Assembly: GCA_017883165.1 (NCBI GenBank)
Contig: JADGOC010000013.1
Coordinates: 1-44,798, forward strand
Reading direction: 5' to 3'
Length of the DNA: 44,798 bases
Origin: Acidobacteriota bacterium
GTDB taxonomy: Bacteria > Acidobacteriota > Vicinamibacteria > Vicinamibacterales > CAVVIG01
The translations under genes and the position numbers were made by a program. The notes below the pieces were generated by a model, which was not told the DNA's origin, made no database searches, and saw only the letters and a program-made list of their open reading frames with translations. This document shows, piece by piece, positions 29,841-35,024 of the stretch (position 1 is its first letter; each line of letters starts with the position of its first letter).

Positions 29841-30044
29841 TCAGGCGGCCTCGCTGCGAACGCTGCCGGCGCGCGGCCCTTTGGCCGACGGCTCTTCCTC
29901 GAAACTGACGCGCTGGCCTTCGTTCAACTCATCGAAACTGCCTTCCACCGAACTGCGATGAAAGAACCACTCCTGGCCGCCCTCATCGCGAATGAACCCA
30001 AATCCTCTGTCCCGAACGAGTCGCTTGATCGTGCCGGTCGGCAT
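29841..30044 (-). CDS. Second cold-shock domain protein
   Basis: 67 residues, about 60 percent identical by eye to the protein at 28680: MPTGTIKRL, RGFGFIRDEGG, EWFFHRSSV and the shared KGPRAG end. GGAG stands 11 nt before the ATG. The longer upstream frame is non-coding. Divergent from sodC. The two copies, 1 kb apart and pointing away from one another, suggest a local duplication. Confidence 0.9.
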   Translation of the reverse strand: MPTGTIKRLVRDRGFGFIRDEGGQEWFFHRSSVEGSFDELNEGQRVSFEEEPSAKGPRAGSVRSEAA

Positions 30045-30078
30045 CCGAGTCTCCTTGGGCGCATATGCCCGAGATCGG

Positions 30079-30107
30079 ATTATCAATATTCGTTCCAATA
30101 CGTCGAG
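30079..30107 (-). promoter_or_regulatory. Candidate promoter of the second cold-shock gene
   Basis: CTCGAC (30107-30102) and GATAAT (30084-30079) are 17 bp apart on the minus strand, leaving a leader near 28 nt. The -35 matches only moderately. Confidence 0.35.
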
Positions 30108-30209
30108 CCGGCGGATCGGCGATTTCTGAGCCGGCCGCCGGGCCAGCTCATCCGGCGGCCGACGCCAATTGCACAGCCTGTGTACAATCCTCACCTCAAG
30201 GAGACACAT

Positions 30210-30824
30210 ATGCGCATATCGCATGCAGTCGCCGCGGCCCTGGCGGTTTTCCTGGCGCCGGCCTTGGTGGTGACAACGTCAGCACAGGCTCCGAAATCGA
30301 CCGCCAAACCGGTCGCCGCGAAGAAGGCGGCGACGCCGCAAGGGCACGGGACCGTCGTCGCCCAGGCGCACGCGACGATCGCGGGCCAGGGTATCACCGG
30401 TTCCGCAGACTTCACCGAACGAAAAAACGGAACGGTTACGTACGTTGAAATTCATCTGACCGCGAAAGGGCTGAAGCCCGGCCTCCACGGCGTCCACCTT
30501 CACGCGGTCGGCAAGTGCGAACCCGACTTCGCGGCGGCCGGCGGACACTTCGATCCAGGTCCCGCCGGGAACATGGATCCCGACGCCAACCACCCGTTCC
30601 ACATGGGCGACCTGCCGCAGCTCGTCGCCGGCGCGAACGGCGAGGGGACGCTCGACGCGATCACCACGCGAGTGACGCTCACCGACGGTCCGCTGACGCT
30701 CTTCGACGCTGACGGCTCGGCCATCGTCATTCACGGCAATCCGGATCAAGGCATCACCGGTGAGCACGGGTCGGGCGTGAGCGGAGGCCCGAGAGTCGCC
30801 TGCGGCGTGATCGAGAAGAAGTAA
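30210..30824 (+). CDS. sodC: Periplasmic Cu/Zn superoxide dismutase
   Basis: 204 residues. Signal peptide to about residue 26 (AVAAALAVFLAPALVVTTSAQA), then a Lys/Ala-rich linker and the SodC domain. Copper/zinc ligands are visible: GVHLHAVGKC (His96, His98, Cys103), GGHFDP (His113), HPFHMGD (His128 or His131, Asp134) and VIHGNP (His175); Cys103 pairs with Cys198 in VACGVI. Converts superoxide to oxygen and peroxide outside the inner membrane. AAGGAG lies 7 nt before the ATG, which is chosen over a longer frame with no signal peptide. Confidence 0.95.
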   Translation: MRISHAVAAALAVFLAPALVVTTSAQAPKSTAKPVAAKKAATPQGHGTVVAQAHATIAGQGITGSADFTERKNGTVTYVEIHLTAKGLKPGLHGVHLHAVGKCEPDFAAAGGHFDPGPAGNMDPDANHPFHMGDLPQLVAGANGEGTLDAITTRVTLTDGPLTLFDADGSAIVIHGNPDQGITGEHGSGVSGGPRVACGVIEKK

Positions 30825-32011: not shown

Positions 32012-32776
32012 ATGACGCAAAATCGTTCGATCGCCATCGCCGCCGCGCTGACGCTGCTCGCCGCGCCGCATCCGCGCCAGTACCGCTTCACGATGGAGTA
32101 CTTCAATTTCGATGCGAAGGGACAGTGCCTTCAGAAGCAGCGCATCGTCGGCGAGTACACGGCCGCCGAGCCGGGAGACGATGTCCGGTGGACGCACGTG
32201 ACGCTGGCGACCGCGGACTCGCTGACGGGCGGATACGCGCGCGAGGAGCCGCAGACGTACATGGAAGGGTTCAGCTATTCGCCCGCGCGCGAGCGGATCT
32301 TCTCGTCCGAGTTCTTCAAGGCCTTTCCGCCGATGGCGACCCAGGCCAGAAATCTCGTGTGGGACACGTTCATGTTCGACACCTTTGCGCTCGACCTGAA
32401 CAGGGTCAAAGCGGGTTCGCCCTATCACGTGCCTGCGTGGGCCGTGCCGTTCGCCGGGGCCGGCTCGTTCACGCACAGCGACATTCAGCTCACGTGGGTC
32501 GGTGTGGTCGAGCGCAACAAGCAGGAATGCGCGCTCATCCGCTATGAGGCGTTCTTCAACACCATCGAGCACGAGCTGCCCGGCATGAAGCTCGTGGGCC
32601 GCAGCGATTACTGGGGCGACATGTGGGTCGCGCTGGCGAGCGGCGAGATCGAATACGCCACGCTGTACGAAGAGGTGACCGGCGAGCTGCGTGTGTCCGC
32701 GCAGGCCGCGCCGCGGGTCGTCAACGTGGTGCGGAAAGGCGCCTTCGAGAGGCTGCCGATCGCGAACGCTCGTTAG
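32012..32776 (+). CDS. Secreted protein of unknown function
   Basis: 254 residues. A hydrophobic start (SIAIAAALTLLAAPHP) is probably a signal peptide. The mature part is beta-rich with aromatic motifs (TMEYFNFDAKGQC, EFFKAFPPMATQA, FMFDTFALDL, DYWGDMWVALASGEIEYATL). No family is recognised. It is divergent from the membrane gene by 3 bp, so its promoter must lie inside that gene or it is leaderless. The convergent PHP gene overlaps its end by 4 nt. Confidence 0.6.
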   Translation: MTQNRSIAIAAALTLLAAPHPRQYRFTMEYFNFDAKGQCLQKQRIVGEYTAAEPGDDVRWTHVTLATADSLTGGYAREEPQTYMEGFSYSPARERIFSSEFFKAFPPMATQARNLVWDTFMFDTFALDLNRVKAGSPYHVPAWAVPFAGAGSFTHSDIQLTWVGVVERNKQECALIRYEAFFNTIEHELPGMKLVGRSDYWGDMWVALASGEIEYATLYEEVTGELRVSAQAAPRVVNVVRKGAFERLPIANAR

Positions 32777-33603
32777 CGCGCGGCCGCCTTCCGCCGGAGG
32801 AGCGCGTCGTACGCGGCGCGCGGGAGCGACACGCTGCCGGGCGAGACCGCGCCGTGCGATTCGTCGCCGTGATAGTCCGATCCGCCTGATACGGCGAGGC
32901 CGAGCCGATCGGCCAACGCGATGTAGCGGGCCGTCTGCTCGCCGTCCTGCTTGGTGTGGTACGCCTCGAGCGCATCGACGCCCGCCTCGGCGAACTCCGG
33001 AATCCATTCGTCCCGGCCGACGAGCCCGGGATGCGCGATCGAAGCGACGCCGCCGGCGGCGTGGATGCGCGCGAACACGTCCTCGGGCGGCGGCGCGAGG
33101 CGCGGCACAAATGCCGGACGTCCACGCGACAGCCAGCGTTCGAACGCTTCGCCCGTCGTCGCGCAGTAGCCGCGCTTGACGAGCGCGCGCGCGATCCACG
33201 GCCGGCCGGCCGATGTAGCCGGGTCGTCGATCCCGGGCTTGAGCACGGCGTCGGCGTCGAGCTCGACGCCGCTCATCGCGAGTCGGAGGATCATCTGCCG
33301 GACCCGATCGACGCGGCGCCGCCGCTGGTCCGCGAGGAAGGACACGAGCGGCGGCGATGCGGCGTCGATGAAATAGCCGAGCACGTGGACGTCGGTCGCA
33401 TCGCGCACGGAGGTAAGCTCGATGCCGGGCACGAACTCGATGCCGGCGTCGGCGCATGCGGCCGACGCCGGCGCGCAGCCGGTGACGGTGTCGTGATCGG
33501 TGACGCCCAGCACGGTGACACCCGCCGCCACCGCCGCCGCCACGAGCGAAGCCGGCGACCGCCGGCCGTCGGAGGCGGTGGTGTGGGTGTGGAGATCGAT
33601 CAA
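32773..33603 (-). CDS. PHP-domain phosphoesterase (YciV/RNase AM-like)
   Basis: 276 residues. The PHP metal site is clear: IDLHTHTTASDG (2-13), GVTDHDT, a later GIELTS, AHPGL and SGSDYHGD. The family includes the RNase AM/YciV phosphoesterase, which trims 5' ends of RNA or hydrolyses nucleoside phosphates. The TTG start follows the Fur-fusion stop as TTGA and begins directly at the first metal motif. Last gene of the erpA-Fur run. Confidence 0.88.
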   Translation of the reverse strand: MIDLHTHTTASDGRRSPASLVAAAVAAGVTVLGVTDHDTVTGCAPASAACADAGIEFVPGIELTSVRDATDVHVLGYFIDAASPPLVSFLADQRRRRVDRVRQMILRLAMSGVELDADAVLKPGIDDPATSAGRPWIARALVKRGYCATTGEAFERWLSRGRPAFVPRLAPPPEDVFARIHAAGGVASIAHPGLVGRDEWIPEFAEAGVDALEAYHTKQDGEQTARYIALADRLGLAVSGGSDYHGDESHGAVSPGSVSLPRAAYDALLRRKAAAR

Positions 33604-34604
33604 CGTCCCGACTTCGCAGGCCGAGTGGCGGCCCGACGTGGGCGGTGGCGGCGCGACACGGGCGGCGCCTGCCGCTCGCGCAACGCGCGGTACTCGCCGA
33701 TCAGCAGATCGAGGTGCGCGCGCTCTTCGGCGGCGAACTCGAGGAAGATCTGCTTGCCCTCGGAGTCCTCGAACCGCTCGCCGTAGCGCTTGAAGAATGT
33801 GTGCGATCCGCGCTCGCACTTGATGCCGATGAGCAGCGCCTGCTGATCGTCGACGCCCGCGCGGAGCTGCTTCGCGCCTTCGGCGAACAGCCCGCTCGCC
33901 GCGCCCTTGAAGAAGAGGAACGTCGGGCGCGACTCGAGCTGCGGATCCTGCGCCGTCAGGCCGCGGTAGCGTGCTTCGAGCGTCGCCAGATGCTCGCGCT
34001 CCTCGGCCGCGAGCTTCCGGAAGACGCTCCGCCCTCGCGGGTCACGCGTCAGGTGCGCCGCGCGCGTGTAGAACGCGAGCCCGCTGCGCTCGGTCGCGAT
34101 GGCGATCCGCAGCGCGTCGCGCGCGAACACGAGCTCGGTGGTGGCGCCGTCGATCGCGCCCGCGCCCTTCCCTGTGCGCCCCGTTCGGCACGCCTCGCAC
34201 ACCCCGTGAATCTGCACGAGCGTCTGCGACGCGGCAAAATCGCGCGCCGCCGCGATCTCTTCGACCAGCGCCTCGACGTCGGAGCTGAGAAACTCCGACG
34301 ACTGGTGGCAGATCGTGCAGATGAGATGGAAATGGCGCGGATGGCGGTACGACGGCTCGAAGCGCGAGCGGCCGTCGCCGAAGTCGACCTTGCGCGCGAT
34401 CCCCGCCTCGACCATCCACTGGAGCGTCCGGTAGACGGTCGCCCGGCCGATGCCCGCGTCCTGGCGCCGAGCGAGGTCGCAGAGATCGTCGGCACTCGAG
34501 TGACCTTCCTGCTCGAGGAAGATACTCAGAATGCGATCGCGTTTGGTTGAGTGTTTGCCGCCTGCGGGACGCAGGCGCGAGAGGTCGGGAAGAGGTCGGG
34601 CCAT
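33600..34604 (-). CDS. Fur repressor fused to a rubrerythrin-like diiron domain
   Basis: 334 residues. The N-terminal half is a full Fur: winged helix (RATVYRTLQWMVEAGIARK, 54-72), metal ligands H88, H91 and H93, and structural zinc pairs C96-C99 and C136-C139. The C-terminal half (about 155-310) is a ferritin-like four-helix bundle with the diiron ligands E172, E202-H205, E264 and E294-H297. So a DNA-binding iron/peroxide sensor and a peroxide- or iron-handling centre are on one chain. ATG start. It lies 25 bp downstream of erpA and is TTGA-coupled to the PHP gene. The frame is open throughout with normal codon use, so a real fusion is likely. Target genes are unknown. Confidence 0.88.
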   Translation of the reverse strand: MARPLPDLSRLRPAGGKHSTKRDRILSIFLEQEGHSSADDLCDLARRQDAGIGRATVYRTLQWMVEAGIARKVDFGDGRSRFEPSYRHPRHFHLICTICHQSSEFLSSDVEALVEEIAAARDFAASQTLVQIHGVCEACRTGRTGKGAGAIDGATTELVFARDALRIAIATERSGLAFYTRAAHLTRDPRGRSVFRKLAAEEREHLATLEARYRGLTAQDPQLESRPTFLFFKGAASGLFAEGAKQLRAGVDDQQALLIGIKCERGSHTFFKRYGERFEDSEGKQIFLEFAAEERAHLDLLIGEYRALRERQAPPVSRRHRPRRAATRPAKSGR

Positions 34605-34629: not shown

Positions 34630-34959
34630 CTATTCCACGCTGAACGAAGACCCGCAGCCGCAGGTGGACGTCGCGTTCGGGTTCTTGATCGTGAACCCGC
34701 CGCCGGTGATCGTGTCGACGAAATCGACCTCGGCGCCTTTGAGGTACCGGATGCTGATCGGGTCCACGAAGAGCTTGATGCCGTGCGCTTCGAAGACCTC
34801 GTCGCCGGAGCCCTGGCCGTTCTCCTCGATCATGAGCCCATACTGGAAGCCGGAGCAGCCGCCGCCCTGAACGAACACGCGCAGGCCGCTGCCCGCCTTG
34901 TTCTCTTCCGTCAGCAGTTCGTTAATCTTCGCCGCAGCGGTCTCGGATACGTTGATCAT
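34630..34959 (-). CDS. erpA: Iron-sulfur cluster insertion protein
   Basis: 109 residues of the A-type carrier family, which passes [2Fe-2S]/[4Fe-4S] clusters to apo-enzymes. The three ligands are Cys35 in GGGCSGFQY, and Cys100 and Cys102 in STCGCGSSF. ErpA and IscA are hard to tell apart; the VQGGGCSGFQYGL core and lack of an isc operon favour ErpA. GGAGA stands 13 nt before the ATG, and TATAAT (34996-34991) about 32 nt before it. First gene of a unit followed by the Fur fusion. Confidence 0.93.
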   Translation of the reverse strand: MINVSETAAAKINELLTEENKAGSGLRVFVQGGGCSGFQYGLMIEENGQGSGDEVFEAHGIKLFVDPISIRYLKGAEVDFVDTITGGGFTIKNPNATSTCGCGSSFSVE

Positions 34960-34990
34960 GAAGGTCTCTTCTCCTCAGGGATTACATACC

Positions 34991-35018
34991 ATTATAGCAA
35001 GAAGCGGGTTGGTATACT
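34991..35018. promoter_or_regulatory. Divergent promoter region of erpA and fdhE
   Basis: Leftward TATAAT (34996-34991) precedes erpA by 32 nt. Rightward TATACT (35013-35018) ends 6 nt before the fdhE TTG. Neither has a clear -35. A Fur-type AT-rich palindrome was looked for and not seen in this short gap. Confidence 0.45.
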
Positions 35019-35024
35019 GCCCCG

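Follow-up and report, generated by a model that had tools for sequence, protein, structure and literature searches.

A Fur repressor fused to a C-terminal diiron domain in Acidobacteriota

The gene at positions 33600–34604 (minus strand) of the window, the 44,798-nucleotide stretch of Acidobacteriota DNA analysed here, encodes a genuine fusion of a Fur repressor to a diiron domain. A single open reading frame runs from an ATG start through 334 codons with no internal stop, and the Fur winged helix and four-helix diiron domain that a sequence-only reading had placed within it are borne out by the ORF, by Pfam and by homologues. Fur is among the best studied of bacterial regulators, and the Fur family has been classed as architecturally monolithic in a survey of transcription-factor architecture (PMC5882156). 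By every test made on its sequence the protein is a Fur with a diiron domain added, and this ancient, strictly conserved fusion would supply Fur with a second iron centre. The earlier reading knew of no described regulator of this plan and we found none in the papers searched, a coverage that left out subscription journals and domain-architecture databases, where an automatic listing may exist.

The Fur domain (residues 15–141; 34182–34562, minus strand) matches PF01475 at residues 15–132 (E=5e-23, 81.9 bits against a cut-off of 23.1), and a structure search pairs residues 2–145 with Fur structures such as PDB entries 9ire, 1mzb and 5nhk. With iron-type Fur proteins it shares the winged-helix fold, two zinc CxxC pairs (C96/C99 and C136/C139), a His/Glu regulatory site (H35, E83, H91, H93 and E104) and a TVYRT recognition helix; it differs from them in the diiron bundle at its C-terminus. 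Between the two lies a variable linker (residues 142–157; 34134–34181, minus strand), with low pLDDT at its start and weak codon constraint, and the protein ends in a basic, variable tail (residues 311–334; 33603–33674, minus strand) recognised from the translation and the codon pattern.

The diiron domain itself (residues 158–310; 33675–34133, minus strand) is a four-helix bundle of the COG1633/rubrerythrin-like type. The rubrerythrin model PF02915 matches it in two stretches at residues 163–218 (E=4e-10, 40.6 bits against a cut-off of 22.8); the domain search that the earlier reading had proposed finds both families above their gathering cut-offs in the one protein. The ligand set E172, E202, H205, E264, E294 and H297 follows the E, ExxH, E, ExxH pattern of rubrerythrin and COG1633 proteins. 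AlphaFold2, given 34 natural relatives, predicts a Fur fold and, past a weakly modelled linker, a four-helix bundle of high confidence, with pLDDT of 92–98 across most of the bundle, and residues 151–315 match COG1633 and rubrerythrin structures (2oh3, Z 15.9; the rubrerythrin 1ryt, Z 15.0), with Dps-like structures also among the nearest folds. Unlike rubrerythrin, the domain is attached to a DNA-binding repressor and lacks a rubredoxin Fe(Cys)4 domain, C263 being the sole cysteine beyond residue 139.

No NCBIfam model matched the fusion protein at its cut-off. The best matches below cut-off were to the Bacillus-type Fur (residues 10–141) and to the ferritin domain of the trifunctional protein PRK12775 (residues 129–310), the latter being the best profile match to the whole diiron half (E=1.6e-18); the fusion nevertheless scores 66 of 1895 bits against PRK12775, far under the cut-off, and the ferritin domain of that protein is joined to metabolic domains and not to a regulator. 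The encapsulin cargo EncB (EncB_fam, 30 of 90 bits) and MbfA (25.9 of 450 bits) likewise fell under their NCBIfam cut-offs, and a search of Rfam gave no match.

A search of 60 related genomes gave homologues of the fusion in 58. Almost without exception these are full length, 60–82% identical and present in single copy, and two of the genomes carrying it are single-contig assemblies (G029 and G041). Of 396 genomes surveyed across the phylum, 42 come from the window's order and 41 of these have the fusion; so do 28 from outside it, spread over about 10 further families, whilst many others have Fur alone. Comparison of close relatives shows changes that are mostly third-position in the Fur and diiron halves, with drift in the linker and tail: purifying selection acts on both halves and the linker and C-terminal tail are little constrained. 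That an assembly or frame artefact has merged two separate genes is ruled out by this conservation and selection, and we give the idea virtually no credence. The frame is intact near codons 145–160, where the sequence-only reading had allowed for a stop or frameshift, and its other reservation, that the halves might be separate genes elsewhere with no further fusions, falls away with the fusions found in other families. Two genomes of the order are without the fusion: one (G049, family f15) has only a short FurA-like paralogue, the other (G036, family f11) no Fur match.

The metal ligands, which are exactly those that the earlier reading had listed, are conserved to a striking degree. All 50 order members compared have the same five residues at the Fur regulatory site, the same four zinc cysteines and the same six diiron ligands, and 12 further fusions not belonging to family f42 keep every one of them. 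Since the six diiron ligands are all present in 62/62 fusions outside family f42, and purifying selection acts on this half, the diiron metal site appears to matter. The counterpoint is family f42 itself, where five of six fusions (L055, L060, L061, L063 and L064) have lost at least one diiron ligand yet retain the domain. Genes for NADH dehydrogenase and methionine aminopeptidase are found close to the fusion gene in this family.

As to wider distribution, a search of 84,980 species gave 35 confirmed loci, all bearing Acidobacteriota names (one is labelled Aminicenantes); the search used one short degenerate pattern spanning the junction, which fusions in other phyla with a different junction would escape. 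Plasmid-borne spread was considered and rejected, no plasmid record covering 80% of the fusion protein.

Tree position and ligands both identify the Fur half as an Acidobacteriota iron-type Fur and not as PerR. Fused Fur domains cluster with the Fur-type proteins of the phylum, apart from PerR/Zur-like paralogues (support 99/97), and the regulatory site (HEHHE) is invariant in 68/68 fusions compared and in 24/24 stand-alone Fur-type proteins. PerR, a member of the same family, may have a peroxide response in common with the fusion, but requires Asp104; Asp is found at position 104 in 19 of 23 paralogues, Glu in all fusions compared. Glu at this PerR-determining position has been tied to H2O2 insensitivity (PMC4866751), and because the fusion carries E104 the site within the Fur half is expected to be of the Fur type and not to react to peroxide. 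PerR identity was rejected on this residue and on tree position, and the replacement of PerR's Asp104 by Glu implies that any peroxide response would come from the diiron half.

The fusions also differ from iron-type Fur at the second metal site (H87/D89/H125 in E. coli Fur). The Asp is missing in every fusion compared and the whole site is lost in those of the window's order, whereas stand-alone Furs keep the Asp in 20 of 24 cases and the His in 24 of 24. Gain of one metal site may thus have accompanied loss of another, although the loss could reflect just one or two events. Further clues to ancestry come from the tree of diiron halves, in which a branch with support 78/81, present in 76% of bootstrap trees, splits the fused domains from the stand-alone rubrerythrins of the phylum. 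That the fused diiron halves form one clade, albeit with modest support, suggests a single ancient fusion; in the Fur tree the fused state requires three changes, and a single fusion followed by later losses of the bundle would fit both trees. Multiple origins are possible.

Is the fusion the cell's working Fur? In the window's genome, which is 100%-complete, it is the only PF01475 match save for one sub-threshold match of 11.6 bits, and it is the sole match in eight further genomes of the order (at least 96% completeness) and the sole detected Fur in three genomes from other families (G067, G157 and G148), these counts coming from one Pfam search of incomplete assemblies. In the three genomes from other families, Fur boxes lie at iron-uptake genes, as would be expected of iron-type Fur. 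One is about 16 bp upstream of feoA in G067, which also has a perfect palindrome, TGAGAATCATTCTCA, between divergent genes for a ZIP transporter and a porin-like protein; others are 28 bp upstream of feoB in G157 and 19 bp upstream of a relative of G067's porin-like gene in G148. The feoA/feoB box sequences are TGAGACYNRGTCTCA and TGAGAATCATTCTCA. Sites with at most one mismatch number 6, 13 and 16 in G067, G157 and G148, respectively; reversing the pattern gives 0, 3 and 0. The porin-like gene encodes a coiled-coil protein without a Pfam match, and has a Fur box upstream in two distant families (L250 and L285), in one of which it is divergent to the ZIP transporter gene.

The canonical box is nearly absent from the window's order (0–2 sites), as it is from G264, a genome of the same class with a stand-alone Fur (0 sites). 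The window's genome has two near-matches, neither upstream of an iron gene. This outcome led to a G+C-shifted box, TGAGANNNNNTCTCA, which is present at four feo loci of the order, belonging to four families (G021, G029, G031 and G033). Four such loci compare with 0.06 expected, with 0 in 452 kb of other order loci and with 0 for the control, a statistic that is partly post hoc and hence indicative, the sequence having been noticed by eye amid the top matches before its occurrences were tallied. The box is missing from most of the order's feoB-like loci; G029 and G031, half of the genomes that carry it, encode a second Fur-family protein besides the fusion; and the evidence within the order comes from relatives' feo loci, that of the window's genome being interrupted by a contig end. 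Taken together, the iron-type tree position and ligands, the frequent status of sole Fur and the boxes at iron-uptake genes indicate that the fusion is probably the order's housekeeping iron Fur, to which a diiron module has been tethered.

Gene order marks two neighbours as conserved operon partners of the fusion. Upstream lies erpA (34630–34959, minus strand), encoding an A-type Fe–S carrier that scores above the NCBIfam ErpA cut-off. Downstream, the fusion's TGA stop overlaps (TTGA) the in-frame TTG start of a gene for a PHP phosphoesterase (32773–33603, minus strand), which by profile matches is RNase AM/nucleoside bisphosphatase-like. Almost every locus in the window's order keeps the arrangement erpA–fusion–PHP, the PHP gene not being detected beside the fusion in G029 and G041, both of them single-contig; beyond the order other genes flank the fusion, and it does not directly adjoin erpA. 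Between erpA and a divergent FdhE-like gene is a promoter region (34960–35024) with a TATAAT for erpA and an inverted repeat, GTATACCAA-N8-TTGCTATAA, also written AGTATACCAA-N8-TTGGTATAAT, that consists of two divergent extended −10-like elements and may represent two overlapping promoters, or an operator. It is kept in part of the family (relatives L002, L003, L007 and L013). The suggestion that erpA and the PHP gene are targets of the regulator found no backing: 34960–35024 contains no Fur box, only these elements, and the boxes that were found precede feoA, feoB, ZIP and porin-like genes.

What might the diiron module do? The best explanation, which we hold with about even confidence, is that a housekeeping iron Fur has acquired a tethered diiron bundle as a second input. 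As in the Fur family at large, the Fe(II)-loaded fusion dimer would bind Fur boxes and repress. The bundle, joined to the Fur C-terminus through a flexible linker, would bind iron reversibly when reduced and be oxidised by O2 or H2O2 to the di-Fe(III) state, and its state would in turn alter how the Fur half binds DNA or is loaded with metal. In this way a Fur with a peroxide-insensitive site of its own could respond to iron and to oxidants. The effect might be stronger repression of iron-uptake genes during oxidative stress, or else a PerR-like release; the sequence fits either. We consider a redox/iron input the most likely role because the Glu found at the Fur site is of the peroxide-insensitive type and, by analogy, because eukaryotic diiron iron regulators act likewise. 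In BRUTUS and FBXL5 a diiron bundle is also fused to an iron-regulatory effector and serves as an iron/redox sensor, O2 and H2O2 oxidising it and reduction releasing part of its iron (PMC12022348). Theirs is a hemerythrin fold attached to a ubiquitin ligase, as opposed to the DNA-binding repressor seen here, so that the likeness is one of analogy and not of homology. The fuller proposal, that one repressor, the main and often only Fur, integrates iron level at the Fur site with O2/H2O2 at the diiron site in cis, is put forward more tentatively. The sequence-only reading suggested that the diiron half could sense or consume peroxide, or bind iron, and so control DNA binding in cis; this may hold, and stays the leading inference.

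Other roles for the bundle have to be set against a second input. It could be a tethered peroxidase or ferroxidase that guards Fe(II)-loaded Fur, along with the DNA to which it is bound, against Fenton chemistry, consuming H2O2 or Fe(II) locally without controlling DNA binding. The complete ligand set of a rubrerythrin-like bundle, the presence of COG1633/rubrerythrin and Dps-like structures among the nearest folds and a Fur half that by ligand type is not peroxide-reactive are all in keeping with this, but the protein has no rubredoxin domain as electron source and a single active site per repressor offers small detoxification capacity; we regard such a role as unlikely. Ferritin-like bundles commonly oligomerise, and the domain might instead serve chiefly in assembly, dimerising or oligomerising the Fur dimer with its metals as structural cofactors. 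Retention of the bundle in f42 whilst its ligands decayed speaks for this: it implies that the fused domain can have a use without a metal site and, as far as these sequences go, counts most heavily against a role for the metal in every fusion. Strict conservation of the six ligands in the 62 other fusions and the existence of phylum relatives that manage without a bundle nevertheless make assembly as chief function a rather doubtful proposition. Least probable of these roles, and to our minds improbable, is storage or passage of iron in cis, with the bundle acting as an Fe(II) buffer for the Fur site or as donor to ErpA from the same operon. Reduced diiron bundles do release Fe(II) (PMC12022348) and the erpA–fusion order is conserved throughout the window's order, but beyond it the two genes are not directly adjacent.

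Should the diiron centre control DNA binding, as the second-input reading has it, bacteria would have in the fusion an equivalent of the diiron iron sensors of eukaryotes, and it would illustrate a route by which Fur can gain oxidant sensing without turning into PerR. In Acidobacteriota, a large group of soil bacteria that is ecologically abundant and has been little studied, the main, often only, Fur carries the diiron domain and with it an iron centre apparently reactive towards oxygen or peroxide.

Two smaller observations concern the surroundings of such domains. Elsewhere in the phylum, long frames with several domains (L236 and L237) carry other rubrerythrin-like domains as their C-terminal part. 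Near the operon, the window contains a Cu/Zn superoxide-dismutase-like frame (29958–30824), and one lies near the fusion in some relatives too.
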